A stretch of 64,000 bases of DNA from Acidobacteriaceae bacterium (GTDB lineage: Bacteria; Acidobacteriota; Terriglobia; Terriglobales; Acidobacteriaceae). Shown piece by piece: positions 28,894 to 45,577 of the stretch. The notes under the pieces were generated by a model. That model ran no database searches and was not told the origin of the DNA. It saw only the letters and a list, made by a program, of their open reading frames with translations. The stretch is from positions 1 through 64,000 of the forward strand of contig DAIDKP010000020.1 in the NCBI GenBank assembly GCA_027449965.1. Direction: 5' to 3'. The translations under genes were made by a program, and so were the position numbers. Each line of letters opens with the position of its first letter. The stretch's first letter is position 1.

Positions 28894-30159
28894 ATGGAGC
28901 ATTTGAAAAGGGAAGTAACTCCATCGGATCCGTCGGAAAGAAGAGCGTGTATGGGAAGCCGTCAGAAGGATGTTCTGGAAATATATAGTCAGCATGCAGT
29001 TGGAAAGGCTGCTCCCAAGCATCAATTGATCTTTGATTCCTTGCACAGTCGCATCCTCAATGGCACCTTCAAACCCGGAGACAGGCTCCCGAGTGAAGCC
29101 GAACTCGGCAAGACATTTGACGCATCCAGAATCACGGTGGCCAAAGCGGTTCTTGAGCTGCAGCGAATGAATCTGGTGACGCGCCGGCCCGGTGCGGGAA
29201 CCCACGTTACGCGCAAACCGCAGGCGGCGGGCTATACGCTCGGTCTTCTGATTCCAGAGTTGGGCAGGACAGAGATATTCGATCCGATTTGTCACGGCAT
29301 GATGCGTTCGCCGTTTGCGCGTCCGGACTCACTTCTCTGGCCCAGTGTTTCGCGCGCGGGTGGTGTCTCCAGCTCGTCGGCAGTGTCCAGCGACAAAGAA
29401 GCCATTGAACAAGCCGAGCACATGGCGCAGCACTTTATCTCTCAGCAGGTTGCGGGCGTATTTTTTGCTCCATTGGAACTGGTCGCGGGCATGGATGCAG
29501 CCAATCGTCGCATCATGCGGATGCTCGAGCGTTCCCGAATGCCTGTCGTGCTTCTCGATCGGTGTTACCTGCCGTATCCGGAGCGCTCCGAGAATGATCT
29601 GGTTGGCATTGATAATCGTCGTACCGGATTTCAAATTACCCAGCGGCTGATTCGCAGTGGAGTCAGGCGGATACTATTCTTTGCCGAGCCTAACTCCGCT
29701 CCGACGGTCGCGGCACGCATCTCAGGATGCATGGAAGCCTCTCGGGAAGTTTCGGATGCTGTGACGGAGGTTCGCACGGCGCATGCGCTGGATATGTCAG
29801 CAGTGCGAAAGATTCTGGAACAGGTGCGTCCCGATGGCATTGTCTGCGCCAACGATGTGACGGCAGCGCGGTTGATGCAGACGGTGCTTGCCTTGGGTCG
29901 GCGGATTCCTGAGGAGATTCAGATGGTGGGCATCGACGATGTACGCTATGCAAGTCTGTTGCCCGTTCCGCTCACCACCATGCACCAGGACTGCAACGCC
30001 ATTGGAGTGATCGCCATGGCGACGATGCTGGAGCGTCTGGAGCATCCAGACCTGCCGGTGCGAGAGATTCTCTTGTCGACGCGGTTGGTCGAGCGCAACT
30101 CCTGCCAGCCAATGATCTCCCGCGAATCAGCTTCGGCAACGGGAAGCACGGAACAGTAA
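28894..30159 (+). CDS. GntR-type HTH regulator with LacI-like ligand domain
   Basis: A transcription factor of up to 421 residues. The winged-helix GntR domain (about 42-108) reads KHQLIFDSLHSRIL, PGDRLPSEAELGKTF and SRITVAKAVLEL. It is followed by a periplasmic-binding-protein-like sensor domain (about 113-400) as in LacI and AraR. Such hybrids normally sense sugars. The ATG at 28951, with GAAGAG nearby, would remove 19 poorly conserved residues and may be the true start. TTGACA at 28873 could be a -35, but I see no -10. Likely targets are the divergent reductase or nearby sugar genes (inference). Confidence 0.88.
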   Translation: MEHLKREVTPSDPSERRACMGSRQKDVLEIYSQHAVGKAAPKHQLIFDSLHSRILNGTFKPGDRLPSEAELGKTFDASRITVAKAVLELQRMNLVTRRPGAGTHVTRKPQAAGYTLGLLIPELGRTEIFDPICHGMMRSPFARPDSLLWPSVSRAGGVSSSSAVSSDKEAIEQAEHMAQHFISQQVAGVFFAPLELVAGMDAANRRIMRMLERSRMPVVLLDRCYLPYPERSENDLVGIDNRRTGFQITQRLIRSGVRRILFFAEPNSAPTVAARISGCMEASREVSDAVTEVRTAHALDMSAVRKILEQVRPDGIVCANDVTAARLMQTVLALGRRIPEEIQMVGIDDVRYASLLPVPLTTMHQDCNAIGVIAMATMLERLEHPDLPVREILLSTRLVERNSCQPMISRESASATGSTEQ

Positions 30160-30218: not shown

Positions 30219-30587
30219 TCAGTTGTGAGACTTTGACCCAGGATGGCTCCGCAGCCACGTCACCAGCTCGCTCACCTCATCGCGGGTGAGGGAATCGCCA
30301 AAGGCAGGCATCTTCTGGCCGCCGTTGTTGATCTGTTTTGCCAGTCGGGAACCGCGCCAATGCCACCATCCCAAATGCGTCAACGACGGACCTTTCGCCG
30401 TGCCGGTAGCTGTCTTCCCGTGGCAATAGCCACACCCTTTTGTCTGGTAGAGCGCTGCTCCGACTTCGATTTTCTGCGCTCTGGTCATGGCACGGGCGGT
30501 CATGGCGTGGACTGGCAATGAAGCCAATGCAACAAACATTCCGCAGAGGAGCATGAACTGAGTAGTCGAAGACTTCAAAGTCATCAT
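30219..30587 (-). CDS. Small exported monohaem cytochrome c
   Basis: A 122-residue protein with a signal peptide (hydrophobic run about 10-27, cleavage near VHA-MT) and one class I cytochrome c domain. Haem attaches at CGYCH (52-56), and Met93 in GQKMPAF is the likely sixth ligand. It lies 24 bases downstream of the pentahaem cytochrome gene and is probably co-transcribed, so it may carry electrons to or from it. Confidence 0.88.
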   Translation of the reverse strand: MMTLKSSTTQFMLLCGMFVALASLPVHAMTARAMTRAQKIEVGAALYQTKGCGYCHGKTATGTAKGPSLTHLGWWHWRGSRLAKQINNGGQKMPAFGDSLTRDEVSELVTWLRSHPGSKSHN

Positions 30588-30611
30588 CTGATTCAGTGTA
30601 GCGAACGTGGC

Positions 30612-33065
30612 CTACAACCCGCCGCCGGTGATGTTGGCAGAAGCAGTGCGACCCGCTCTTGGTGGTGTTGCCACGGTCAGATCGTGCACATGCCAGGCGA
30701 CACTTTCACTGGCGATCTCCGGATGTTTGCGTAGGAACTCCAGTGCATAAACCGATGCCGTGGGGTCTGTTTTTTCTGCGGTGAATCGGGAGGCTTCGTA
30801 GCTGGCTTTGCTGTGCTGGTGGAGTCGGCGATAGAGAATGGCCAGGTTGTAGTGGGCCGACAAATCATCCGGATCTACGGTTTGCAGCTTCTGGTAGTAC
30901 TCTTCCGCTTTCTGATACTCGTGTTTCTGATAGTAGCTGAAACCCAGATCGCGAAGTGCATTGCGGGATCGCGGAAACCGTGTCAGGACCAGGTTGAGAT
31001 CGTCGATCGCCTGACTCACCTGCCCTGCGTTTCGCTCTACCAGTGCACGATAGTAAAGCGCGCGGGAATCCCCCGGCATCAGCGCCAGCGCTTTCGCCAG
31101 ATTGGGACGTGCATCATCGTACTTCTCCCAAAGAATCTCCACCACCGCCATATTCGTATACGCATCACCGTAATTTGGCCGCAGCGCCGCTACCCGTTCA
31201 AAGGCATGGACAGAAGCTGCATACTGCTGCGCATCCAGCAGCGCGATTCCATAGTTGTTCCAGCGCATCCACTCCGGATTTTCATCAGCCTGCGGCGGGA
31301 CAGGAGCGTTCTTTCCAACGGCAAGCGTGCGAGTCTCTGAAGCCATATCGATCACCGGTTCCGGATAGTGCTTCTTGTTCATCGCAAAATCAATGAAGTG
31401 CTGATTGAAACGGCGATACCGGACAGTGGCAGTGATCTGGATCGGACCCTGCACATCGCCGGGCAGATGGAAGCGGTATCGCACAAGCTGGCTGCGGCCC
31501 GACTGGATCGTGTTGTTGTAAGCCAGCACGCGATTGTGCCAGATCTGATGGAGGTCGTTGAACTGCCCCTGCTTATTGATAATCCGATTGGTGAACGAGT
31601 GCGCCGATGTGTCCAGGTTGCCGTCGGGTTGCAGATATCCGCTCTCAGCAAGCGTTTTTCCGGAGCCATCCTTGACGGTAAAGTTCACCCATCCCTCGTA
31701 AAAATCCCTTTGCTCCGGCACAAAGGAATGTCCGATGCCCTTGTTCTGAATGACCACGTCGGCCACCAGAGTTTGCCCGCCCGTAATGGAAAAGCTGGTC
31801 AATCCAAGTGGCGCAACCACCACCGAATCGTCTTTTGTCGCCTCAACATTCTCAATCTCAAGCGCAAAAATATCGACATTGAAGACGCCCGTGCGCAGGA
31901 ATGCAGCCACCTTTTCTGCTTGCTCAGAGTACTTGTAGTACTGCGGGATCAGCGTATTACCGCCAACCCAGCGATGGCTCGCCAACATGCCCTGAGTGCC
32001 GCCGTAATCAGAAGCGCCGGCAGGCAGTGGTTCACTTTTCATGTGGCAGGTTTGACATGTCGAGACAGTATCTTTGCGATAAAACGGTAGCGGGGATTCT
32101 TTGGCAAAGCTTGTATTTTGCCATTCGTCATACACAGTGAAAGCACGCAGCCATTTGTAGTCGTCCAGCGCCTTGGGGATTGCAGCTTTATGGCAGGCAG
32201 CACAGAACTCCGAGGTATGTAGCATCGGCCGCATCACCGCCTGACTATGCCGGTCCAGGTGTGCCAGAATCTCGCTGTCCGGAACTGGCGTGGTGATGGG
32301 CTGTCCGTGCTCGTCCACCAGCACGGCGGGAATGCCCATGACCCAGCTTCCAGTGCCCATGGTTGTGGTGGATGTCATCGCGTGACAGGTCATGCAGGTA
32401 ATGCCTTCGTTGGCAAACGGACGCTTGCGCGGCATTCCCTGTGAGAGATCGCCGGAGAGCAGCGCGACGGGATTATGGCAGCCCTCGCAATGCCGTGAAT
32501 ACTGTACTCCCTTTTCGTCAATCAGCATATTCACGTTGCGCAGATACCAGGGAGCGCGAAAACTGTTTGCATGCGCCGATTGACGCCACTGGTGATAGCT
32601 CTCCTTATGGCAATGGCCGCAGTATTCCGCCGTGAGAAAACTCTTCGGGCTATAGAACTGCCCATTGATGCTGGTCGCGTTCGAGGGCAGGAACGGATGA
32701 TCTTTTCCGAATGCATAGTTATAGCGACTGGTGATCTGCTGGTCATATTGCGTCGGCGGAACAACGGTCCAGGGAGCCACTGCAGGCTGGCCCGGCGCGT
32801 AGGAAGAACTGCCAAAGACGCCCTGCTCTTCGGTGTCCGGTGCGTTCGCGTCCGTTGCATTCTGCTGTGCTGGATTCTGCGTGGGACTCTGGGTCGTAGC
32901 GGCGGCTCTTTGTGACTTCTGGCTCGGCTTGGATGCCGCGCGAGTCGTGCTCGCACCTGGGACCGCCATCATCGCCGCCAGGATCAACAACGCCAGCGGT
33001 GAAGCCGCCGAGCAACGTATCCATGGGCAAGGGAACTGACTTGCAAATCGATGCGCAGAAAACAT
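30612..33065 (-). CDS. Exported pentahaem cytochrome c fused to TPR repeats
   Basis: An 817-residue predicted periplasmic protein. After a hydrophobic export segment (about 22-36) and a low-complexity Ala/Gln/Pro/Thr linker come five CxxCH haem sites: CGHCH (149), CEGCH (193), CMTCH (224), CAACH (288) and CQTCH (337), in the manner of cytochrome c554-like proteins. A middle beta-rich region (about 420-590) follows, then TPRs (about 600-770; ALRPNYGDAYTNMAVV and DPDDLSAHYNLAILYR). It may be an electron carrier or a reductase of unknown substrate. GGAGG lies 11 bases before the ATG. It is divergent from nuoA. Confidence 0.88.
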   Translation of the reverse strand: MFSAHRFASQFPCPWIRCSAASPLALLILAAMMAVPGASTTRAASKPSQKSQRAAATTQSPTQNPAQQNATDANAPDTEEQGVFGSSSYAPGQPAVAPWTVVPPTQYDQQITSRYNYAFGKDHPFLPSNATSINGQFYSPKSFLTAEYCGHCHKESYHQWRQSAHANSFRAPWYLRNVNMLIDEKGVQYSRHCEGCHNPVALLSGDLSQGMPRKRPFANEGITCMTCHAMTSTTTMGTGSWVMGIPAVLVDEHGQPITTPVPDSEILAHLDRHSQAVMRPMLHTSEFCAACHKAAIPKALDDYKWLRAFTVYDEWQNTSFAKESPLPFYRKDTVSTCQTCHMKSEPLPAGASDYGGTQGMLASHRWVGGNTLIPQYYKYSEQAEKVAAFLRTGVFNVDIFALEIENVEATKDDSVVVAPLGLTSFSITGGQTLVADVVIQNKGIGHSFVPEQRDFYEGWVNFTVKDGSGKTLAESGYLQPDGNLDTSAHSFTNRIINKQGQFNDLHQIWHNRVLAYNNTIQSGRSQLVRYRFHLPGDVQGPIQITATVRYRRFNQHFIDFAMNKKHYPEPVIDMASETRTLAVGKNAPVPPQADENPEWMRWNNYGIALLDAQQYAASVHAFERVAALRPNYGDAYTNMAVVEILWEKYDDARPNLAKALALMPGDSRALYYRALVERNAGQVSQAIDDLNLVLTRFPRSRNALRDLGFSYYQKHEYQKAEEYYQKLQTVDPDDLSAHYNLAILYRRLHQHSKASYEASRFTAEKTDPTASVYALEFLRKHPEIASESVAWHVHDLTVATPPRAGRTASANITGGGL

Positions 33066-33413: not shown

Positions 33414-33779
33414 ATGGCTGTGTATGCTCCACTCCTGATCCTGTTCCTGGCCGCGCTTGGCTTTGCCATTGCACCGCTCGCGCTGGCGCGTCTGTGGGCA
33501 GCATGGGTTTCTCCGCCAAAGCCGAACGCGATCAAGAACGCAATCTACGAGTGCGGGCTTGAATCCAAAGGGGATGCCTGGGTCCAGTTTCGATCCGGTT
33601 ACTATCTCTACGCGATTATCTTTCTGGTTTTCGATGTCGAAGCGGTTTTCCTGTTGCCATTCGCTGTAGCTTTCACGGGGCTGGGCGTGGGAGCGTGCGT
33701 TGCAATGTTTGTCTTTGTGCTGTTGCTGGCCGAGGGGCTTGCCTGGGCATGGGCCAAGGGTATCCTGACCTGGGCCTAG
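33414..33779 (+). CDS. nuoA: Complex I subunit NuoA
   Basis: Membrane subunit of NADH:quinone oxidoreductase-type complex I, 121 residues with three helices. The conserved loop NAIYECGLESKGDAW, with the ubiquinone-channel Cys, and the helix 2 acidic run VFDVEAVFLLP are intact. It opens the twelve-gene nuo operon; nuoB follows after 36 bases. Confidence 0.95.
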   Translation: MAVYAPLLILFLAALGFAIAPLALARLWAAWVSPPKPNAIKNAIYECGLESKGDAWVQFRSGYYLYAIIFLVFDVEAVFLLPFAVAFTGLGVGACVAMFVFVLLLAEGLAWAWAKGILTWA

Positions 33780-33815
33780 CGGCTCCGCGTTGTTTCAGGC
33801 TTCAAGGAGTGTTGG

Positions 33816-34442
33816 ATGGCAGTTGAGCCAGATCTGAAAATCGAGCTTGGCAAGCAGGGCGTGTTCGTTACCACGCTCAACGAACTGTACAACTGGGGCC
33901 GTCGCAACTCCGTCTGGCCCATGCAGTTCGGTCTGGCCTGCTGTGCCATTGAAATGATCGCTACTACGATGGCGCGCTATGATCTGGCGCGATTCGGGGC
34001 AGAAGTCTTTCGCCCCTCGCCTCGTCAGGCGGATTTAATGATTATCTCGGGAACTGTGACCAAGAAGATGGCGCCTCAGGTAGTGCGTCTTTACAATCAG
34101 ATGGCTGAGCCGCGGTACGTCATTGCCATGGGGGCTTGTGCCATCTCCGGCGGCCCATTCAAGCAGGGCTATAACGTGCTCAAGGGCATTGATCGCTATA
34201 TTCCCGTCGATGTCCATATTCCGGGATGTCCGCCTCGACCGGAGGCTTTGATCCACGCCTTCATGACCTTGCAGAAAAAGATTGAAGCACAGCCGCTGAC
34301 CGGAGAGGCGCGTCCGCGCCATCTGAATGCGGAAGCGCAGGGCGAGTTTCCCGTCCCTGTGCCATCCGCGCATGACCTCAATCCGCCGGTGAATCGGCTG
34401 GTATGGCCGCTGCCTGCACCCAATCCGGGAGAATCAGCATGA
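33816..34442 (+). CDS. nuoB: Complex I subunit NuoB (N2 cluster)
   Basis: Peripheral-arm subunit that holds the terminal [4Fe-4S] cluster N2, the direct electron donor to quinone. The four Cys are in [16 protein letters not shown] and [11 protein letters not shown]. Length 208, with a C-terminal tail of about 40 residues beyond the core. AAGGAG lies 6 bases before the ATG. It overlaps nuoC by ATGA. Confidence 0.96.
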
Positions 34443-35113
34443 AGACCTCCGAACAGGTGCTTTCGGAGTTGCTGGCTGCAATGCCTGAGGTCAAGGTGTC
34501 GCTCCTTGTCAACCCCTCTGCGTCTGCGCAGCATTCCCTGCTGGTGGCATCCGAGGATGCTTTGCGCGTGGCGGCATATCTGCGCGACCAACTCGGTTAT
34601 GACTACTGCTCCAATGTGACAGGCGTCGACTGGCTGGACAAAGAGACAACGGAAAAGCGAAAGACCTCTCGAATCGTGTTGAAGCAGGTCGATGGCGTTG
34701 AGCAGAGTGTGGAAGAGACAGTCGAAGAGACGGTCAAGCGTGTTGACCCCGGCTACCTCGAAGCTGTCTATCACCTGTTTTCGATGAAGCACGGCCCAAC
34801 CGATCCTCATCCGCCGCTGGTGATCCGGATGCGAACCGGAAATCGCAGTGACGCCGTCGAGCTGCCCTCGCTCACGCCCGTCTGGCGCTCAGCGGAGTTT
34901 CAGGAGCGGGAGATATTCGATCTCTACGGGATCGTATTCCGCGGGCATCGCGATTTGCGCCGACTGCTCATGTGGGACGAGTTTGAAGATCATCCCATGC
35001 GCAGAGATTATGTGGACCCGGACGACTACGAATACGAGCCGACTCCCCACGACGACGTGCTCAAGCGAGCAGAGCAGCAGCGCTTGCAGGCTGCACAGGG
35101 CGGTGCACTATGA
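34439..35113 (+). CDS. nuoC: Complex I subunit NuoC
   Basis: The 30-kDa peripheral subunit that packs against NuoD near the quinone site, 224 residues. The family signature [20 protein letters not shown] is complete, followed by [11 protein letters not shown]. An acidic insertion around residues 70-105 (many Glu, including [12 protein letters not shown]) lies between the two halves of the fold. Start and stop overlap nuoB and nuoD by ATGA, so NuoC is separate from NuoD, unlike the fused form of E. coli. Confidence 0.95.
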
Positions 35114-36264
35114 GCGATCTCGCAATCCAATCCTATCTGCCGCCGGTCATCGAGGTCGAGTCGCAGGATGAGCTTCTCGAAGTGGCGATGGGTCCGCATC
35201 ATCCATCCACGCACGGCGTCTTTCGCATGGATGTGGCGCTCGATGGCGAGCGCGTTGTGCGTCTCAAACCAGTCTTTGGCTACCTCCATCGCAATCACGA
35301 AAAGATCGCAGAGAAAACAACGTATCTGGCTTCGATGCCTTATACGGATCGGCTGGACTATTTCTGCTCCATGACGAATAACTGGGCCTACGCGCTGGCT
35401 GTCGAAAAGCTTGCCGGCATCGAGGTTCCAGAGCGCGCCGAGTACCTGCGAGTGATTACCGCCGAGCTGACGCGCATACAGAATCACGCAAGCGCCATCG
35501 GCTTTCTCCTGCAGGAGATGGGCGCCAGCGGAACGCCGCTCATGTATGCGTTTCGCGAGCGCGAAATAATCCTTGACCTCTTTGAATCGCTGAGCGGTTC
35601 GCGCATGATGTGCAACTACATGCGCTTCGGAGGATGCCGCGTGGATCTTCCTGCGGGCTGGCTCGATGCGGCCAGGCAGGTAGTTGCCGGGCTTCCGCGA
35701 TTTATCGATGAAATCGAAGCGCTGCTGACTTCAAATGAGATTTTGATGGCTCGTTCGCAGGGCGTGGGTATTTTGAAGCCTGATCTTGCGATCAACGCCG
35801 GAGTTACCGGTGTCATGTTGCGGGCAACCGGTGTCAACTACGATGTGCGCAAGGTGGATCATTACGGCATCTATGACCGTTTCAGCTTTCGCGTTCCCTT
35901 GGGTGAGCACGGCGATATCTATGATCGATACATGCTTCGTGTACTGGAGATGAGGGAATCGGTGAAGATTCTTGAGCAGGCGATTCCCCAGCTTCCTGCC
36001 GGTCCGATCCTCGATCCAAAGTCCAAACCCCGTGGCTTTCGTCCCAAGCCGGGCGAAGCATACGGACGCATCGAAGCGCCCAAAGGCGAACTCGGTTTCT
36101 ATCTGATCAGCGACGGAACCGGCAACCCCTATCGCTATCGTGTAAGGCCGCCTTCGCTCATCAATCTGACCATTCTTGAGGATATGTGTCTGGGGCAGAA
36201 TGTGGCGGACGTCGTCCTGATCTTTGGCAGCGTCGACATTGTCCTTGGCGAGGTGGATCGATGA
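35110..36264 (+). CDS. nuoD: Complex I subunit NuoD
   Basis: The 49-kDa subunit forming the quinone-binding pocket with NuoB; 384 residues, related to NiFe-hydrogenase large subunits. [13 protein letters not shown] (quinone-site His), [12 protein letters not shown], the LTRIQNHAS segment and the terminal [11 protein letters not shown] Asp are present. nuoI follows after 25 bases, with no gene for NuoE, NuoF or NuoG between. Confidence 0.96.
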
Positions 36265-36289
36265 ACAGACGCTCGCAGCAGGAGGCGCA

Positions 36290-36958
36290 ATGTTAGGCGA
36301 AGGAATTCTGAAAGGGCTTGGAGAAACGGCCAGGAATTTTGTCGGCAGTTTTGTCTCAGAAGATCGTTTGACGACCGTGGAATATCCTGAGCAGCGCCTG
36401 CTGCCCATTGAGAATACGCGCGACTTTCCGTTCCTGGTGTACGACGGCGCGGACCCGGATGCAGGACTGCGCTGCGTCTCCTGTCAGATATGCGAGAAGG
36501 AATGTCCGCCGAAGTGCATCTATATCGTCAAAAGCACCGACAAGAAACCTGACTACGTGGGCAAGCCGCAGTTCTATCCGGCGCGTTTCGACATTGATAT
36601 CTCGGTGTGCATGAGCTGCCAGATTTGCGTCGAAGTCTGTCCCTTTGAAGCCATCAAGATGGATACGGAGTTCGAGTTGAGCACCGACGATCGTTTTGGC
36701 GGTCTCATTCTCGACAAGCACAAACTGGCCAAGTCCAATGAGCATTTCCAGCGGATTCATCCCACAGAAGCCGCGGAAGTGGACGCGCGACTGGCTGAGG
36801 AAAAGGAAAAAGTCGAGGCCAAAGCAAAAGCCGCCGCGGAAGCTGCCGCTGCAAAAACTGCTGCGGAATCTGCCGCTGCAAAAACTGCTGCGGAATCTGC
36901 CGCGCGAAAGGCCGAAGACGGCTCTTCCGGATCGGACGCAGAGGGGGTGAAGCCGTGA
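36290..36958 (+). CDS. nuoI: Complex I subunit NuoI with Ala-rich repeated tail
   Basis: Ferredoxin-like subunit carrying clusters N6a and N6b. Both [4Fe-4S] motifs are complete: CVSCQICEKECP and CMSCQICVEVCP. From the ATG at 36290 (GGAGG 4 bases upstream) the protein has 222 residues. The core ends near residue 150 and is followed by about 60 residues rich in Ala, Glu and Lys with a nine-residue repeat (SAAAKTAAE), a likely charged helix. The tail is not part of the usual family. nuoH starts inside the stop (GTGA). Confidence 0.94.
   Translation: MLGEGILKGLGETARNFVGSFVSEDRLTTVEYPEQRLLPIENTRDFPFLVYDGADPDAGLRCVSCQICEKECPPKCIYIVKSTDKKPDYVGKPQFYPARFDIDISVCMSCQICVEVCPFEAIKMDTEFELSTDDRFGGLILDKHKLAKSNEHFQRIHPTEAAEVDARLAEEKEKVEAKAKAAAEAAAAKTAAESAAAKTAAESAARKAEDGSSGSDAEGVKP
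36843..36905 (+). repeat. 27-bp tandem repeat inside nuoI
   Basis: A 27-base unit, begun at 36843 and repeated at 36870, runs for about 2.3 near-identical copies. It codes for nine residues per unit (AAAKTAAES) in the NuoI tail and stays in frame. Confidence 0.85.
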
Positions 36959-38157
36959 ACTCAGCTACCCTCGATCAGTTCTTCGTTCTCTTGCAGCATC
37001 ATCTCTCAGCGCTATTCCCGACAGTTCTCCAGCCATGGGTTTCGATGATCCTGGGTGTCGTAGGAATCGTGGCCGTCTTCCCTGCAATTTTTGCATTGAC
37101 AACTGTGCTGGAGCGCAAGGGATTGGGGCGGATGCAGAATCGGCTAGGCCCCAATCGTGTGGGGCCGTTTGGCATTCTGCAGCCGATTGCAGACGCGATC
37201 AAGTCGCTGACCAAAGAAGACATCGTTCCTCGAAGCGCCGACGATGTTGTGCATTTTCTGGCTCCGGTTGTACTCGTCGTCGCCATTTTCCTCGGATATG
37301 CCGTGCTGCCCGTCGGTCGCAATATGGTTCTGCTGAACATCGACGCGGGAATTCTGCTCTTCTTTGCAGTCGGCGCTTCGACCGAGCTTTCGATCTTCAT
37401 GGCGGGCTGGTCCAGTCGCAACAAATACTCGCTGCTCGGTGCAATGCGCGCTGTTGCGCAGATGATCAGCTATGAAGTTCCGCTGCTGCTCGCGGCTGTG
37501 GTCGCCGTCATGATGGCAGGGTCGCTCGCTCCCACGGCCATTGTTCAGGCGCAAGGCGGGTTCACAGGCATCTTCCCTCACTGGTATGTCTTCACTCCCT
37601 GGGGCTTCGCCGGTTTTGCGCTCTTTGTCGTGGCCGCACTTGCGGAAACGAATCGTTCGCCGTTTGACCTGCCCGAGGGCGAGTCGGAGCTGGTGGCGGG
37701 CTACTTCACCGAATACTCCGGATTCAAGTTCGCTCTGTTTTTCCTGGGTGAATATCTTGGCATGATGTCGATTGCCGGCTACGGAATCACGCTGTTTCTC
37801 GGCGGCTGGGGTGCTCCGTTCTCATTCCTGACGTTTATTCCCTCCTGGGCATGGTTTTTTGCCAAGCTTTTTCTGGCTATCTTCTTTTTCATCTGGCTCC
37901 GGGGCACTCTGCCGCGGCTCCGTCAGGATCAGTTAATGAACTTCGCTTGGAAATTCATGCTGCCTCTGTCTCTGCTCAATCTCTGTGTCGCGGCAGCATG
38001 GAGATTTTTAGGAGAATGCTTGGGGAGTGGCACAGTTGCCGAGGTCATGCGCTGGCTGGTTTGCGCTGCTGTCCTGGTGCTGGCTTATATTCTTCTGGCG
38101 CGAACACTCCTGCGCCGTCAAAACATTCGTCCGAGGAGTTATCGCTATGCCGACTGA
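36955..38157 (+). CDS. nuoH: Complex I subunit NuoH
   Basis: Membrane subunit joining the peripheral and membrane arms and forming much of the quinone tunnel, 400 residues with eight helices expected. RMQNRLGPNRVGPFG and ETNRSPFDLPEGESELVAGYF, the acidic quinone-site loop, are intact. It starts with GTG overlapping the nuoI TGA. Confidence 0.96.
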   Translation: MNSATLDQFFVLLQHHLSALFPTVLQPWVSMILGVVGIVAVFPAIFALTTVLERKGLGRMQNRLGPNRVGPFGILQPIADAIKSLTKEDIVPRSADDVVHFLAPVVLVVAIFLGYAVLPVGRNMVLLNIDAGILLFFAVGASTELSIFMAGWSSRNKYSLLGAMRAVAQMISYEVPLLLAAVVAVMMAGSLAPTAIVQAQGGFTGIFPHWYVFTPWGFAGFALFVVAALAETNRSPFDLPEGESELVAGYFTEYSGFKFALFFLGEYLGMMSIAGYGITLFLGGWGAPFSFLTFIPSWAWFFAKLFLAIFFFIWLRGTLPRLRQDQLMNFAWKFMLPLSLLNLCVAAAWRFLGECLGSGTVAEVMRWLVCAAVLVLAYILLARTLLRRQNIRPRSYRYAD

Positions 38158-38190
38158 ACGGATAGGCCGACGGAAAGGATATCGACCGCA

Positions 38191-38703
38191 ATGATGGAGG
38201 GTTTTATCTTCGGGTTGCTGGCCATCCTGACGCTGGTCGGAGCTTTGGCAGCCGCTGTGCTGCGCAATCTCGTGCACTGCGCTTTGAGTCTCTCCGTCAC
38301 ATTTGTCGGACTGGCTCTGATGTATCTCAGTCTCGGTGCCCAGTTCGTTGGGCTTTCCCAGATTCTTGTCTATATCGGCGCCGTAGCCATCCTCGTTGTC
38401 TTTGCCATCCTGTTGACCCGCGGGGCTGGAGCGTTGACCCCACATCGACTGATTGCTGCTGCTGGCTGGCGTCTGGGGTGGATCGCTTCGGTTGCCGTCG
38501 GCTTTGTACTGATCTTTGCGCTGGTTCGCTCACCTTTGCCCGCTTCGGGCGATCAAGCTGCCAAAGTGACCGTGCTGCAGATCGGTCAGGCTTTGATGGG
38601 GCCGTACGTTCTTCCCTTGGAGGTTGTCGCGATCCTGCTGACAGTTGCCCTCATCGGTGCGGTCATCGTCGCGATGCCGGAAGATCAGAAGGAGATGCGA
38701 TGA
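38191..38703 (+). CDS. nuoJ: Complex I subunit NuoJ
   Basis: Membrane subunit of 170 residues with five helices. The start (FGLLAILTLVGALAAAV, then RNLVHCALSL) and the helix 3 pi-bulge region (LVYIGAVAILVVFAI) match the family. It lies 33 bases after nuoH and overlaps nuoK by ATGA. Two adjacent ATG codons are possible starts. Confidence 0.93.
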   Translation: MMEGFIFGLLAILTLVGALAAAVLRNLVHCALSLSVTFVGLALMYLSLGAQFVGLSQILVYIGAVAILVVFAILLTRGAGALTPHRLIAAAGWRLGWIASVAVGFVLIFALVRSPLPASGDQAAKVTVLQIGQALMGPYVLPLEVVAILLTVALIGAVIVAMPEDQKEMR

Positions 38704-39008
38704 CTCTGACGCCGTATCTCATCGTTGCCGCGCTTTTGTTTGCTATTGGACTGGGGATTGCGCTCACCCGGCGTAATGCCATTCTCGTGCTCATCGGGAT
38801 TGAACTCATGCTGAACGCTGCCAATCTGAATCTCATCGCATTCTGGCGGTTCGGGCCACACCCGGAGCTGATGACCGGCATGCTTTTTGCTCTGTTTTCG
38901 ATTGCTGTTGCAGCTGCGGAAGCTTCCGTTGGTCTTGGTCTCGTGATCGCCTGGTATCGGCACTCAAAGACAACCGATCTCGATGAGATGGCAAGGATGA
39001 AGGGATAA
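38700..39008 (+). CDS. nuoK: Complex I subunit NuoK
   Basis: Small three-helix proton-channel subunit, 102 residues. The buried acidic residues are present in LIGIELMLNAANLNL (helix 2) and AAAEASVGLGLV (helix 3). It shares one base with nuoL (TAATG). Confidence 0.95.
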   Translation: MTLTPYLIVAALLFAIGLGIALTRRNAILVLIGIELMLNAANLNLIAFWRFGPHPELMTGMLFALFSIAVAAAEASVGLGLVIAWYRHSKTTDLDEMARMKG

Positions 39009-41110
39009 TGACGTCGCCGATGATTCCTGTCTCTTCTTCGGATGCCGCTTCGATGGCGTGGATTGTTCGCAATCTCTGGCTCATCCCGATTCTCCCCATG
39101 GTCGCTTCCGGGTTGATTGCCCTCCTGCCGCAGCCTCGCCGCAAACCTGCTGCGACTCTGGCGATCGGCGCTCTTCTCATTTCATTCCTCCTTGCAGTCA
39201 CAGCCTTTGCTCATGTGCTCATGAACTGGAGCAGCGGTGGCCCGACGCGTGAGATGGTCAGCTTTGACTGGCTCACCTTTGGCTCGGCCACGTTGCAGAT
39301 GGGCTGGGTGCTCGATCCGCTGGCAGCCATCATGCTGGTCATGGTCACGTTTGTGGGTTCGCTCATCTTCATCTACTCCACCGGCTACATGAGCCACGAC
39401 GAAAACTTCACCCGCTTCTTTTGCTTCCTTGCGCTCTTTGCCGGCGGAATGCTGGGGGTCCTGATCGCCAACAGCCTGTTGCTGCTCTTCATGTGCTGGG
39501 AGATTGTCGGTCTGACATCCTATCTGCTCATCGGTTTCTGGTATCACAAGCCAAGCGCCGCCGCAGCGGCAAAGAAGGCATTCCTCACCACTCGTGTCGG
39601 AGACATTTTCTTCCTGCTGGGCATGGTGTGGCTCTTTGCACAAACAGGCACGCTGCTTTTCTACAACCACGGTGCCGGAGCCATTGAGCCGACTGCGCTT
39701 GCCACATTGCTGGGCCACCATGCCGCCTGGGGACTGAGTGCTGCGGGCGCCATCGGTCTGCTCATCTTTGCCGGTGCAGCCGGCAAAAGCGGACAGCTTC
39801 CGCTGCACGTCTGGCTACCCGATGCCATGGAAGGACCGACGCCTGTCTCGGCGCTCATTCACGCGGCCACCATGGTGGCTGCCGGAGTCTATCTGGTGGC
39901 GAGGGTCTATCCGCTGATGAGCGCTGGCGCAGGGCCTGGGACCACCACAGCGTCGCTTACGGTTGTAGCCTGGGTGGGCGCGGCTACCGCGCTCTTCGGC
40001 GCTCTCGTCGCCGTGGCCCAGTTCGATATCAAGCGCATTCTTGCCTATTCCACCGTTTCGCAGCTTGGCTACATGATGGTTGGCCTGGCGACAGGCGGAG
40101 TTGCCGTTGGCATCTTTCATCTGATCACCCACGCATTCTTCAAGGCGCTGCTTTTCCTGGGTGCCGGTTCGGTGATCCACGGCTGCCACGAAGAGCAGGA
40201 TATTCGCAGGATGGGCGGCTTGCGTGCGCAGATGCCGATCACCTTTGCGGCCTACACCGTCGGCATGCTTGCTCTCAGCGGCTTTCCAATCTTCTTTTCC
40301 GGTTTCTGGAGCAAAGATGCGATCGTCGGCGCGGCCCATCACTGGCCCGTCTCGCAAGGACCATTCTGGATGCTGCTCCTCGGCGCGTTGCTCACTGCGT
40401 TTTACATGATGCGTCAGGTGGGTTACGTCTTCCTCGGCTCCTGGAGAGGTCATGGTCACGCGCATGAATCACCGGCCGTGATGACCATTCCGCTCCTCGT
40501 TCTGGCGTTTTTTGCCATCGCGCTGGGAGTTCTGGGAACGCCAGCCTGGCCATGGTTCACGGCATTCCTTGACGGCCATTCTCTGGTCTTCGATCTCGCC
40601 GGATTCCGTGAGCCAGGTCTTGTCCCCATGATGTTGCTTGCCTCCACGCTCGTCTTTGTGGCTCTTGGCGTGGGCTGGCGTCTCTACGTCGCTCAAGCCA
40701 ATCGCGCGGACACCGATCCAGATGTTCTGCAACGCGTATCGCCCCGAGTGTTCGGCTGGTTGGAATCCCGTCTTTACTTCGACGAGTTGTATCAGGCGAC
40801 GATCCTGCGCGCATATGCACTGCTGGCTGCATTCGCAGCATGGCTTGATCGACAATTCTGGGGTGGCATCGTCGCTTCGATCTCCTCAGGCTTCCGCGCC
40901 TTGGGCCGGTGCAATCGTTCGATGGACAGCCAGTGGATCGACGGCGGATTCGATAAAGGCTGCGAAGAATTGACGACGGCTGGAGGGGTACTGGCGTGGT
41001 TGCAGGCCGGGCGTGCTCCCAGCTATCTGCGTACTCTGACCATCGGCCTGCTCATCCTTCTTGCAGTGATTTTGATGGCTGCATCCATTACCGGGCAGGT
41101 GAAGTTATGA
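39008..41110 (+). CDS. nuoL: Complex I subunit NuoL (distal antiporter-like subunit)
   Basis: Proton-pumping subunit at the tip of the membrane arm, 700 residues; the E. coli protein has 613. Key charged residues are kept: Glu in MCWEIVGLTSYLL (helix 5), Lys in GKSGQLPLHVWLPDAM (helix 7), Lys in FDIKRILAYSTVSQLGY and Lys in FWSKDAIVG (helix 12). The C-terminal 100 residues form the long lateral helix and its anchor. nuoM starts in its stop codon (ATGA). Confidence 0.95.
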   Translation: MTSPMIPVSSSDAASMAWIVRNLWLIPILPMVASGLIALLPQPRRKPAATLAIGALLISFLLAVTAFAHVLMNWSSGGPTREMVSFDWLTFGSATLQMGWVLDPLAAIMLVMVTFVGSLIFIYSTGYMSHDENFTRFFCFLALFAGGMLGVLIANSLLLLFMCWEIVGLTSYLLIGFWYHKPSAAAAAKKAFLTTRVGDIFFLLGMVWLFAQTGTLLFYNHGAGAIEPTALATLLGHHAAWGLSAAGAIGLLIFAGAAGKSGQLPLHVWLPDAMEGPTPVSALIHAATMVAAGVYLVARVYPLMSAGAGPGTTTASLTVVAWVGAATALFGALVAVAQFDIKRILAYSTVSQLGYMMVGLATGGVAVGIFHLITHAFFKALLFLGAGSVIHGCHEEQDIRRMGGLRAQMPITFAAYTVGMLALSGFPIFFSGFWSKDAIVGAAHHWPVSQGPFWMLLLGALLTAFYMMRQVGYVFLGSWRGHGHAHESPAVMTIPLLVLAFFAIALGVLGTPAWPWFTAFLDGHSLVFDLAGFREPGLVPMMLLASTLVFVALGVGWRLYVAQANRADTDPDVLQRVSPRVFGWLESRLYFDELYQATILRAYALLAAFAAWLDRQFWGGIVASISSGFRALGRCNRSMDSQWIDGGFDKGCEELTTAGGVLAWLQAGRAPSYLRTLTIGLLILLAVILMAASITGQVKL

Positions 41111-42621
41111 CCGGCACTCTTACCATGCTCACGGCCTTGCCCGCAGTTGGCGCCATCGTCGCCGGATTTTCCGGCAAGCGCGCTCGTTGGGTCGCTATGG
41201 CTGTTTCGCTCATCGCTCTGGTTGCCACGCTCTGGGTATGGTTTTCGGTCGGCGCCAGCGGCCAGATGGCTTTCGTTGAGCGCGCCATCTGGGTACCCGA
41301 TCTTGGCATCGAATATCACCTCGGAGTCGATGGGCTTGGCGCTTTGATGCTGGTTCTTTCGGCACTCGTCACGCTTATCTCGGTGTCGGCTTCGCGTTCG
41401 GTCAAGCAACAGCCGGGTCTGTATTTTGGTCTGGTTTTGCTTCTGGAGTCCGGACTGTTCGGCACCTTCACAGCGCTCAATTTCTTTCACTGGTTCATCT
41501 ATTGGGAACTCAGTCTCATTCCCGCATTCTTTCTCATCCGACTCTGGGGTGGACCCCGTCGCGGCCCGGCAGCAACCCAGTTTTTTGTTTACACCATGGT
41601 GGGTTCCGTAGCCATGCTGCTCGCATTCCTGGCGATCTTTGTCGCAACCGGTGGCATGGACTTCATCGCTCTGGCGCACTTCGCCGCGACCGGGGAACTG
41701 CACCGGCTGATCGAAGCACATCTTGGCCACGTGGAACTCCTGCTGGCCTGTGGAGTGCTGCTTGGATTTGCCGTAAAGGTTCCGCTGATGCCGTTTCACA
41801 CCTGGCTGCCAGATGCCTACTCCGAGGCGCCCACTGCGATCACGATTCTGCTCACAGGGGCTATGTCGAAGATGGGCGTCTACGGACTGCTCCGGATCGC
41901 TCTGCCCATCTTTGGCAAAGAACTTTTTGCCATGAGGAGCGAACTGCTGGCGCTGGCAGTTTTGACCGTCGTAGCCGGTGCATGGGCTGCGGTTGTGCAA
42001 AAGGATCTCAAGCGAATCTTTGCCTACTCGTCGATCAACCATCTTGGTTACTGCCTGCTGGCTCTCTTCGCTGTACTCTTGCCGGCTGCGGGTGATCCTG
42101 CCCGAATGCTGAGCGTTTCCGCAGCTCTGGATGGAGCGATCCTGCAGATCTTCAACCACGGTCTGACCGCAGCGACCATCTTCTGGTTCCTCTGCATGTT
42201 GGAAGAGCGCAGCGGAGGCACACTTTCGCTCGATACCTTCGGAGGCTTGCGGAAGCGAGTCCCGATCCTCTGCGGTCTGATGGGAATTGCGCTGTTTTCG
42301 TCCCTCGGTCTTCCGGGTCTGAATGGATTCGTCGGCGAATTCCTGATCTTCCGCGGAGTCTTCCCACTCTCATGGCAGTCCGCAACAGTCTCTGTGCTCG
42401 GGTTGCTGATCACGGCAGCGGTCATTCTTACGGTGATCCAGCGCGTCTTCAGCGGCCCACTGTCCACTCACTGGAGCGCGATGCCTGACCTGACCCTGAC
42501 CGAGCGGATTGCCGTCGCTCCGGCCCTTATACTCATGCTGCTCCTTGGCCTTGTGCCGCAGATTATTCTCGGCGTAATCAATCCGACCGTTTTGCATCTG
42601 ATCGACGGGTGGAGATTCTGA
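41107..42621 (+). CDS. nuoM: Complex I subunit NuoM, first copy
   Basis: Antiporter-like proton-pumping subunit, 504 residues. All usual charged residues are seen: Glu in IYWELSLIPAFFLI (helix 5), Lys in FAVKVPLMPFHTWLPDAY (helix 7), Lys in MSKMGVYG, Lys in KDLKRIFAYSS and Glu in GFVGEFLIF (helix 12). A second, diverged nuoM follows directly, sharing one base (TGATG). Confidence 0.93.
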   Translation: MTGTLTMLTALPAVGAIVAGFSGKRARWVAMAVSLIALVATLWVWFSVGASGQMAFVERAIWVPDLGIEYHLGVDGLGALMLVLSALVTLISVSASRSVKQQPGLYFGLVLLLESGLFGTFTALNFFHWFIYWELSLIPAFFLIRLWGGPRRGPAATQFFVYTMVGSVAMLLAFLAIFVATGGMDFIALAHFAATGELHRLIEAHLGHVELLLACGVLLGFAVKVPLMPFHTWLPDAYSEAPTAITILLTGAMSKMGVYGLLRIALPIFGKELFAMRSELLALAVLTVVAGAWAAVVQKDLKRIFAYSSINHLGYCLLALFAVLLPAAGDPARMLSVSAALDGAILQIFNHGLTAATIFWFLCMLEERSGGTLSLDTFGGLRKRVPILCGLMGIALFSSLGLPGLNGFVGEFLIFRGVFPLSWQSATVSVLGLLITAAVILTVIQRVFSGPLSTHWSAMPDLTLTERIAVAPALILMLLLGLVPQIILGVINPTVLHLIDGWRF

Positions 42622-44141
42622 TGCTCGCGTGGACCATTTATCTCTCGTTTGGCGGTGCATTGCTGATCGCCTTTTTTGCCCAGGGCAGGCCTCAACTGGC
42701 GCGTTGGCTTGCACTGCTGACGGCCGTGGGTGGGCTTGGCCTTGCCGGCTGCGCTTTCTTTACTCAAACCGGTGTCACCCCTGTTGTGGATGCAGCGTGG
42801 ATTCCGGCAATGGGCATTCGGTATACGCTTTCCGCCGATGGCATCAGTCGAGTGCTGGTTCTTCTTACGGGCTTTGCCTCGGTTGCAGGTGTCCTGTTCT
42901 CCTGGAACATCGATCGTCGTGTCAACGAATTCTTCGGATTCTATCTTGCGCTCATCGGTGGCGTTTACGGCGTATTCCTTTCCGCCGATCTCTTTCTCTT
43001 CTTTGTTTTTTATGAGATTGCCATCGTCCCCAAATACTTTCTCATCGCCATCTGGGGGTCCACGCGTCGCGAATATGGAGCGATGAAGTTAGCCCTGTAC
43101 TCCTTCATCGGGTCGGCAATGGTGCTCGTGGGACTGCTCGCGGCCTACGCCGTTTCCGGCGGACATACTCTCAATCTCGCAACGCTCCAGCAGTATCCGT
43201 TTCCGGTTTCGTTTCAGATGTGGGCGTTTCCGCTTGTCTTTCTCGGCTTTGCCGTTCTGGCCGGCATGTGGCCTCTGCATACCTGGGCGCCCACGGGCCA
43301 CGTTGCCGCACCCACAGCCGCATCCATGCTGCTCGCTGGCGTCGTCATGAAGCTCGGTGCGTATGGCTGTCTGCGTGTGGCCATGACCCTGTTCCCGCAT
43401 GGTCTTGATCCCTGGGGCTGGAGCTTCCTGGGCATCGGTTCCTGGCGAACTCTTTTCGCGTTGCTCGCCGTCATTGGCATCCTCTACGGTGCCGCGGTTG
43501 CGCTCATTCAAAACGATTTCAAATTCGTCATCGGTTACTCCAGCGTCAGCCACATGGGACTGGTCCTGCTGGGCCTGATGACACTGAGCCAGATCGGTCT
43601 GGACGGAGCGGTTCTGCAAATGTTCTCGCACGGAATTCTCGCCGGTCTGCTCTTCGCCACTGTCGGTCGCATCGTCTATGAACGTACACACACGCGTGAC
43701 CTGACCGCTCTCAGTCATTTGCATCTCAGCCGGACTCTTCCATTTGCTGCCTGGCTCTTCGTTCTCGCCGGCATGGCCTCCATGGGCCTGCCCGGCTTCA
43801 GCGGCTTCATCGCGGAGCTTCAGGTCTTGATCGGTGCCTGGACGGCGTTTCCTGTCTTCACCATCGTTGCGGGTGTGGGCATCGTAGTCGGTGTTGCCTA
43901 CACCTGGCGCGCCATGCAAAAGGCATTTTTCAATGAAGCCCCAGCGCATCCATCTGCGGCAGCCGCTTCAATTCCCGCCCAACACGCCTTTGAGCCGATC
44001 ACCTGGGCAGAGAAAACAGGGGTCATTCTTCTGCTTGCGGCCAGCCTGGCTGTTGGCCTCGCGCCTCGGCTCTTGCTTGATCAGATCACCCCGGCGGTCC
44101 TTGCGCTGCCTCATACCCTGCTCACGGGAGGCCGACCATGA
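42621..44141 (+). CDS. Second, diverged NuoM-like subunit
   Basis: A second antiporter-like subunit of 506 residues. Helix 5 Glu is present (FYEIAIVPKYFLIAIWG), as are Lys in VMKLGAYG, Lys in NDFKFVIGYSSVSH and Glu in FIAELQVL. In the helix 7 motif, the first copy has FAVKVPLMPFHTW and this one FAVLAGMWPLHTW, so the pumping-channel Lys is replaced by Leu. GGAG lies 6 bases before the ATG at 42621; a GTG 12 bases upstream is also open. Extra NuoM subunits are known from so-called two-NuoM complexes. Confidence 0.9.
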   Translation: MLAWTIYLSFGGALLIAFFAQGRPQLARWLALLTAVGGLGLAGCAFFTQTGVTPVVDAAWIPAMGIRYTLSADGISRVLVLLTGFASVAGVLFSWNIDRRVNEFFGFYLALIGGVYGVFLSADLFLFFVFYEIAIVPKYFLIAIWGSTRREYGAMKLALYSFIGSAMVLVGLLAAYAVSGGHTLNLATLQQYPFPVSFQMWAFPLVFLGFAVLAGMWPLHTWAPTGHVAAPTAASMLLAGVVMKLGAYGCLRVAMTLFPHGLDPWGWSFLGIGSWRTLFALLAVIGILYGAAVALIQNDFKFVIGYSSVSHMGLVLLGLMTLSQIGLDGAVLQMFSHGILAGLLFATVGRIVYERTHTRDLTALSHLHLSRTLPFAAWLFVLAGMASMGLPGFSGFIAELQVLIGAWTAFPVFTIVAGVGIVVGVAYTWRAMQKAFFNEAPAHPSAAAASIPAQHAFEPITWAEKTGVILLLAASLAVGLAPRLLLDQITPAVLALPHTLLTGGRP

Positions 44142-45577
44142 GCACCTACGGCAACCTTCTCGCAATCCTGTGGCCTGAGTCGATTCTTGAAATCGCATCG
44201 CTGGCCATCCTGGTCGTCGATCTCGGCTTCATGCGTCGCGCCTCCAGTGCAGCCCGGATGAGCGTGGCAAGCACCCTGGGATCTTTCGGCGCATTGACCG
44301 CTCTTCTCTGGCTACTGATGCACGCGGGCAGCATGACCGTCATGGGCGGCGCGCTCGTCACGAATGCTTCGGTCGTCGCTGCTCAGGTCGGAATCCTGAT
44401 TCTGACAGCCCTCGTGTTGCTCCTGGGTGTTTCCGCGCGATTTACTCGCAATCCCGGGGAGTACGTGGCCCTGGTTCTGCTCGCAACCACGGGCATGTTG
44501 CTTGTGGCGGCCTCACGCGATCTGCTCATCATCTTTGTGGCCCTCGAGCTTCTCAGCCTTTCTCTGTACGTACTCTCAGCTTTCTCCAAACACTCGGCGG
44601 CCTCATCCGAAGCTGCGCTCAAGTACTACCTCTTTGGCGGAATGTCTGCGGCGTTTATGCTCTTCGGCTTCAGCTATCTGTACGGCATCACCGGTACCAC
44701 CCGTCTGACGGCGATTGCCGCCTCGCTTGCTTCCGCTTCTCTCACGCCCATCACCCTGGTGGCGCTCGTGCTGGTTGCGGTGGGCCTTGGATTCAAAGTC
44801 GCCGCTGTTCCGTTTCATATCTGGGCGCCTGATACCTATCTCGGAGCCCCCACTCCCGTCGCAGCGCTCATCGCCTCCGGTTCCAAGGTCGCAAGCTTTG
44901 CCGTGCTCATCGCCGTCACTGCCGCTCTGGCCCCCGCATGGGGTTGGACAGAAACGCTGCTCTGGATGGCAGGAACTTCCATCGTTCTCGGCAATCTGGC
45001 CGCGCTGGTTCAGTCCAGTGTGCGCCGCATCCTGGCCTACTCGGCCATCGCTCATGCTGGCTACATGCTGCTTGGCATCGCGGCCCACACCCTCGCGAGT
45101 GACCAGGCAGTGCTCCTTTATGCCTTGACCTACGCGCTCACCACTGTTGGAGCTTTCGCCGTGGTCGCCATCGTGGAGCGCGACGCGGGCAGTGACCGTC
45201 TGGACGCATTCGCTGGCCTCAGCGCACGCAGCCCCTTGCTCGCCGCCACGCTGATGGTCTTTCTGCTTTCGCTGGCTGGCATCCCGCCGCTTGTCGGCTT
45301 CTGGGTCAAGTTTCAGATGTTTGCTTCCGTCTTGCGCTCGCCGCTCGCCGCCTCCTGGGGAATTGGCATGGTGATCCTTGCCATCGCCGGCAGCGCTGTC
45401 TCGCTCTACTACTACCTTCAGGTTCTCAAGCGCGCCTGGGTCGCTCCGGCAGCGGTTTCCTCCAGGCTGGCGATTCAGCCCAGAGAGCTTCTTCTGCTGC
45501 TCCTGATCGCCATCACTGTCATTCTGCTGGGCATCTTTCCGGGCTGGCTGTTGCAATGGATTCCAATGGTTGGATGA
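44138..45577 (+). CDS. nuoN: Complex I subunit NuoN
   Basis: Antiporter-like subunit nearest to NuoK, 479 residues. Glu in FVALELLSLSLYVLS (helix 5), Lys in GLGFKVAAVPFHIWAPD (helix 7), Lys in GSKVASF and Lys in FWVKFQMF (helix 12) are present. In the loop where other subunits have Lys-Arg (LKRIFAYSS) it has VRRILAYSA. It is the last gene of the operon, overlapping the second nuoM by ATGA. I see no terminator before the converging glycosidase gene. Confidence 0.95.
   Translation: MSTYGNLLAILWPESILEIASLAILVVDLGFMRRASSAARMSVASTLGSFGALTALLWLLMHAGSMTVMGGALVTNASVVAAQVGILILTALVLLLGVSARFTRNPGEYVALVLLATTGMLLVAASRDLLIIFVALELLSLSLYVLSAFSKHSAASSEAALKYYLFGGMSAAFMLFGFSYLYGITGTTRLTAIAASLASASLTPITLVALVLVAVGLGFKVAAVPFHIWAPDTYLGAPTPVAALIASGSKVASFAVLIAVTAALAPAWGWTETLLWMAGTSIVLGNLAALVQSSVRRILAYSAIAHAGYMLLGIAAHTLASDQAVLLYALTYALTTVGAFAVVAIVERDAGSDRLDAFAGLSARSPLLAATLMVFLLSLAGIPPLVGFWVKFQMFASVLRSPLAASWGIGMVILAIAGSAVSLYYYLQVLKRAWVAPAAVSSRLAIQPRELLLLLLIAITVILLGIFPGWLLQWIPMVG

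Follow-up and report, generated by a model that had tools for sequence, protein, structure and literature searches.

The closest described protein is cytochrome c552 of Thermochromatium tepidum (PDB 5ze8), in which the same five-haem domain is followed by an Ig-like beta domain and which is the best match, by fold as well as by sequence, to the protein reported here; it differs in having no tetratricopeptide repeat (TPR) array, and the two are 15-16% identical. To our knowledge, c552 has no partner of the CRTAC1 family. According to PMC11976967, a PHC family has been proposed for ExtKL, Gsu2801 and proteins of cable bacteria, with an Ig-like domain and structural homology to c552 as shared features; the Geobacter and cable-bacteria PHCs (ExtKL, Gsu2801, sPHC and lPHC) thus have the pentahaem plus Ig-like arrangement of our protein, but these proteins have truncated haemoglobin or split Ig-like parts and not TPRs. 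Cytochromes encoded in operons of Shinella and Nitratiruptor share the core over 96-97% of its length together with its invariant histidines, and a separate DUF4405 gene adjoins them, in the place of the membrane anchor that is fused to distant acidobacterial members; they differ in having iron-uptake neighbours, no TPRs and no CRTAC1. A similar pairing is described in PMC12758564, where HZS-like clusters outside the anammox bacteria include a CRTAC1 FG-GAP gene that is flanked by, or adjacent to, haem-protein genes, and some of these haem proteins have c554 domains; the clusters encode HZS-type subunits and not PHC-TPR proteins, and we regard them as an independent case. The term "CRTAC1 family protein" was met only in that source in the literature searched, and neither a PHC-CRTAC1 pairing, nor ASPIC/UnbV together with a multiheme cytochrome, nor multiheme c554-type cytochromes of Acidobacteria with tetratricopeptide repeats were found there (most subscription journals and bioRxiv lie outside its coverage).

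We report on a gene pair in a 64,000-nucleotide stretch of an Acidobacteriaceae genome (assembly GCA_027449965.1, contig DAIDKP010000020.1, positions 1 to 64,000; referred to as the window), the host of which is described as a soil or sediment acidobacterium. The larger gene (30612 to 33065, minus strand) encodes an exported pentahaem PHC-family cytochrome c of 817 amino acids with an Ig-like domain and C-terminal TPRs. Exactly 24 bases downstream, on the same strand, lies the gene for an exported monohaem class I cytochrome c of 122 amino acids (30219 to 30587), which matches Pfam Cytochrome_CBB3 with 51.8 bits (cut-off 27) and carries the haem motif CGYCH (30420 to 30434, minus strand) and, downstream of it, a KMP motif that would supply the Met ligand. 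Compared with relative L038, differences at the first, second and third codon positions number 29/16/182 in the large and 13/8/28 in the small gene, and since most fall on the third position both frames appear to be under selection at the protein level. On the plus strand the pair is flanked by a gene for a regulator with a GntR-type HTH and a LacI-type sensor (28894 to 30159; Pfam) and, on its other side, by a divergent nuo operon (33414 to 45577) with eleven subunits (A, B, C, D, I, H, J, K, L, M and N) and no E, F or G. The ORF coordinates, the Pfam match and the subunits identified thus bear out the original prediction of a small cytochrome c gene 24 bases on and of a pair divergent from an EFG-less nuo operon.

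The 817-residue protein has a signal-like N-terminus and, within residues 149-341, five CxxCH motifs (32607-32621, 32475-32489, 32382-32396, 32190-32204 and 32043-32057, minus strand), and 10 of its 12 cysteines belong to these motifs, the other two being located in the signal-like region; in 20,000 shuffles of its residues the mean number of CxxCH was 0.006 and the maximum one. On the minus strand, the pentahaem domain (approximately residues 105-395; 31881 to 32753), delimited by the CxxCH positions and by structure and profile matches to 5ze8, is followed by the Ig-like beta domain (approximately residues 396-590; 31296 to 31880), assigned from predicted secondary structure and containing the invariant His446, and by the TPR array (approximately residues 598-770; 30756 to 31274), which is recognised by Pfam TPR families and TPR structure matches and has pLDDT values mostly above 85. 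The predicted models, which contain no haems and have a mean pLDDT of 71 (whole protein) and 67 (core) with middling confidence for the haem domain, place a beta-rich block between haems and TPRs, so that motif count, Pfam and models agree on the order first proposed, i.e. five CxxCH, a beta-rich middle and TPRs in one exported protein. Several TPR families match in Pfam, as does Cytochrome_C554 (PF13435; 36.1 bits, cut-off 20.8), a broad motif-level family.

With the whole model as Foldseek query, 5ze8 was the top non-TPR match (E 6.8e-8). VIA on the whole model gave mostly TPR proteins, and the core was therefore folded and searched on its own: 5ze8 then ranked first in Foldseek (E 4.6e-9) and reached a VIA Z of 12.0 (rmsd 6.0, 332 of 385 residues aligned), the next row having Z 8.3; the VIA alignment runs on through the Ig-like domain (model 37 to 477). 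A profile of the core (residues 105-590) likewise returned 5ze8 as the best PDB sequence (E 6.9e-6), and the extra histidine of the Ig-like domain is aligned in a weak third segment. Five CxxCH are present in 76 of 78 family ORFs, the remaining two being partial. The protein is accordingly a PHC-family core and Ig-like domain to which a TPR tail has been added, a real and conserved variant of a known cytochrome group of which the TPR-tailed form is new. The haem-beta part, which matches c552, is hence no unfamiliar cytochrome, but we met no library family joining a PHC core to a TPR tail. No NCBIfam cut-off was reached; ExtKL (NF040886, an equivalog), with 31.3 and 28.4 bits against a curated cut-off of 250, was rejected as an identity. 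Of the c554/NrfA-like families suggested at the outset for a domain search, Cytochrome_C554 is above its cut-off; the CxxCK of NrfA is absent. In NrfA, the ammonia-forming nitrite reductase, the catalytic haem is bound to CxxCK (some NrfA differ), whereas all five motifs of the window protein are CxxCH, and an NrfA-like identity was rejected. An invariant lysine, K293, follows the fourth haem motif.

Outside the haem motifs, four histidines (H165, H273, H364 and H446) are kept in 98-100% of 156 partly redundant family proteins and also in the Shinella and Nitratiruptor homologues; they probably act as second ligands for four of the haems. With five haems and four invariant extra histidines, one haem would be left with no invariant second ligand, making the fifth a candidate open or substrate-facing haem; H192, which is conserved in close relatives, could close it there. 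This putative ligation is read from conservation only, because the models have no haems and middling confidence in the haem domain.

A core-profile search at 1e-10 matched 126 of 297 Acidobacteriota genomes, and the source genome has three copies of the pentahaem-TPR gene, of which the two outside the window sit elsewhere and have no nuo beside them. Among 80 loci from genome contigs, nuoA diverges upstream of the cytochrome gene in 36; the other 44, including those of Granulicella, Terriglobus, Edaphobacter and Bryocella relatives, have no nuo linkage. In a quick tree of 87 rows all 37 nuo rows (window included) fall in one starred clade of 39 rows, where the upstream sequence of the other two (L059 and L065) ends too early to tell, and the simplest view of the linkage is thus that it arose once, as a derived arrangement. 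The proximity to nuo noted originally is therefore real and at the same time confined to one clade; it is local history, and hints at no more than shared regulation. Contig C15 carries a separate NuoF-domain locus (L205:3422-7156, approximately 158-162 kb), adjoined by an ORF that by eye is NuoG-like, which indicates that the window nuo encodes an additional, EFG-less complex I. On contig C14 (L206:971-8805, approximately 78-86 kb) another 51K-domain ORF adjoins ORFs containing several haem-like motifs; together they may form a dehydrogenase cluster of their own. Homologues of the regulator (at least 40% identity) accompany the pair in the nuo clade and at some other loci; we do not accept the regulator as proof of sugar control, since its homologues are near only some loci and LacI-type regulators are common. 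In several nuo-clade loci the cytochrome gene is directly followed by one for a REase-ARP (PF22558; e.g. L045:10170-11192), which in some separates cytochrome and monohaem c; the cluster of homologues to which it belongs covers 18 loci. Two contigs are probably mis-binned judging from their placement, as the cytochrome of L083 (filed under Rhodanobacteraceae) and the CRTAC1 of L111 (filed under Verrucomicrobia) group inside Acidobacteriaceae.

The neighbour shared across the phylum is instead a propeller protein. In relatives lacking nuo the usual neighbour encodes a secreted protein with FG-GAP and UnbV_ASPIC domains (CRTAC1 family), e.g. on plasmid pACIX901 of Granulicella tundricola, the public record of which lists a protein so named, a TPR protein and a cytochrome c consecutively. 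In 40 hand-picked regions from the whole phylum, a same-strand CRTAC1 gene lies within 400 nucleotides in 25 (absent in 13, with two cut by contig ends), and it overlaps the cytochrome gene by 4 nucleotides in 8 of these 25. Within 1.5 kb it is found at 29 of the 44 non-nuo loci (nine lack it and six are cut short by the contig) and at none of the 36 nuo-linked loci (28 with room, eight short). Both paralogues in the source genome abut a same-strand CRTAC1 gene; none was detected among the ORFs flanking the window copy (window, L128), which explains its absence from the earlier interpretation. The present partner of the window copy and its nuo-linked relatives may hence be a different one. In three members of the nuo clade (L049, L058 and L062) a CRTAC1 of another subgroup is located 4.6-5.8 kb away, on the opposite strand and beyond the regulator. 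The phylum-wide partnership with CRTAC1, in our opinion the most interesting aspect, accordingly rests on relatives and paralogues and not on the window copy.

Pairwise distances within 51 adjacent cytochrome-CRTAC1 pairs are correlated (r 0.83; 0 of 2000 permutations), a correlation that shared ancestry alone could give. The placement of the TPRs is also of interest: each of the six distant cytochrome rows that lack TPRs has CRTAC1 as its immediate neighbour; three of these CRTAC1 proteins bear the TPRs themselves, and two of the three remaining partner ORFs (L173 and L174) run to the contig end; among 62 rows having a TPR-bearing cytochrome and a partner, the partner has TPRs in one. A genome of the same genus (L124:4504-9242) encodes a pentahaem cytochrome that is membrane-anchored, has one CX4CH motif and lacks TPRs; these are carried by the abutting CRTAC1 protein. 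We read the distant rows as a TPR array that has shifted between two cooperating proteins. The idea, already expressed in the original prediction, that the TPRs serve in docking is supported, the contact with a partner being putative.

The source genome (3.24 Mb) has 11 ASPIC domains. One of its unlinked CRTAC1 genes, at C23:101 kb, is the nearest kin of the adjacent CRTAC1 group and groups (100% local support) with those of L094, L100 and L106, which precede the cytochrome by approximately 1 kb, as well as with that of L091, which is farther upstream; kin of the old partner may thus persist in this genome. Nine CRTAC1 ORFs of the genome are not beside a PHC-TPR gene, and they do not support a general association of CRTAC1 genes with cytochromes; haem-motif ORFs that deserve a look surround just one of the nine, at C23:43 kb, and single motifs elsewhere look like chance. 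A 327-residue ORF with ten C(x2-4)CH motifs (L198:12099-13082) is present in the same genome a few kb from a CRTAC1 gene. At another locus (L122:3575-5203) a protein of 542 residues with seven CxxCH and TPRs is encoded directly downstream of one CRTAC1 gene and is followed by a CRTAC1-PHC pair.

Of the 36 nuo-linked loci, 9 have a monohaem c gene within 400 nucleotides downstream of the cytochrome and 15 more have one at a distance of 0.4-6.5 kb; for the 44 other loci the numbers are 31 and one. At 12 nuo-linked loci (four on short contigs) and 12 others (four short) there is none nearby. In the N-terminal membrane segments of the distant members H48 and H107 are kept in 23 of 24, and each position of a second pair is a histidine in 13 of 24; one such member matches DUF4405. 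One DUF4405 protein binds haem b according to PMC11334425. The fused transmembrane segments of these deeper relatives would, from their conserved residues, carry the histidines of a b-type cytochrome. Relatives beyond Acidobacteriota were sought on plasmid records only. The homologues on plasmids of Shinella sp. HZN7 and Nitratiruptor sp. YY08-14, covering 97% and 96% of the core with 24-27% identity, are flanked by a DUF4405 and an FTR1 gene, with that for imelysin farther upstream; the imelysin-DUF4405-cytochrome-FTR1 order recurs in Shinella PSBB067, and in Aeromonas (L210) only FTR1 is beside the homologue. Pentahaem cytochromes in iron-uptake-like operons are accordingly seen on plasmids of Pseudomonadota and Campylobacterota (L208, L209, L210 and L211), where they are possibly an Fe(II)-oxidising link to the quinone pool.

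We favour, with a probability of roughly 0.55, a periplasmic electron-exit module in which a soluble low-potential pentahaem protein, docked by its TPRs to a partner that ancestrally was CRTAC1, passes electrons to the monohaem cytochrome c. The window protein would be a secreted, soluble PHC member with a TPR tail holding the partner protein, the ancestral one being an FG-GAP/ASPIC-UnbV propeller; electrons would enter the low-potential pentahaem chain at this partner or at the open haem, and leave via the neighbouring monohaem c for the high-potential side of the respiratory chain (two COX1 genes are above cut-off in the source genome). In the deeper relatives the link to the membrane would instead be provided by a b-type (DUF4405-like) anchor that is fused to the protein and faces the quinone pool. 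As to direction, c552 is reportedly called low-potential in the title of a 2019 paper by Chen et al., which concerns c552 and not the window protein, and class I cytochromes c usually have high potentials, which makes flow from the pentahaem protein to the monohaem c the likelier course. We also raise, tentatively and as a plausible extension, a phylum-wide extracytoplasmic redox pair of Acidobacteriota, in which a PHC cytochrome would be joined through TPRs to a secreted CRTAC1 protein that brings or activates a substrate. The cytochrome would either be held in the membrane by a b-haem domain or, when soluble, be accompanied by a monohaem c; the copy in the window would then represent a derived branch that has left CRTAC1 and moved beside a second complex I.

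In an alternative reading the protein would be a periplasmic reductase, in which electrons from the quinone pool or the monohaem c reduce a soluble acceptor (an oxyanion, Fe(III) or peroxide) at the open haem; a role of this kind has been proposed for ExtKL-like PHCs. A class I c of high potential would, however, be ill suited to feeding electrons into a low-potential pentahaem chain, the loci examined showed no recognisable neighbouring gene for a reductase partner or porin, and the weak similarity to the ExtKL model (28-31 bits) is far below its cut-off; we consider this alternative unlikely, even if the b-type anchor of the distant relatives would suit quinol oxidation and PMC11976967 counts PHCs, for which it gives a five-coordinate haem, among the potential catalysts.

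The plasmid operons bring to mind a role in iron handling, i.e. extracytoplasmic Fe(II) oxidation or iron cycling with the CRTAC1 propeller as the metal-binding partner in place of imelysin. This draws on the imelysin-DUF4405-PHC-FTR1 order in Shinella and Nitratiruptor and on the adjoining FTR1 in Aeromonas, but these homologues are distant from the core at the identities given above, homologues of their imelysin or FTR1 were not found in the acidobacterial loci examined, and several loci have carbohydrate-related neighbours instead, which renders it doubtful. Least of all do we expect the pair to be a respiratory accessory, an electron link made for the divergent complex I: the 36 loci with a divergent nuoA and the coherence of the nuo rows in one starred clade speak for it, yet all other loci with the same pair, as well as the two paralogues in the source genome, manage without nuo, the operon is on the opposite strand, and complex I reduces quinone and not periplasmic cytochromes, so that we judge it very improbable.

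The electron-exit module favoured here would be a candidate periplasmic electron-transfer route in a phylum common in soil, and it adds TPR-tailed and membrane-fused forms to the cytochrome group that is discussed in connection with nanowires and cable bacteria in PMC11976967. CRTAC1 proteins with FG-GAP and ASPIC/UnbV domains are abundant in these bacteria, and the steady partnership with a pentahaem cytochrome provides a testable redox hypothesis which, if true, would give the bacterial CRTAC1 proteins a redox role.
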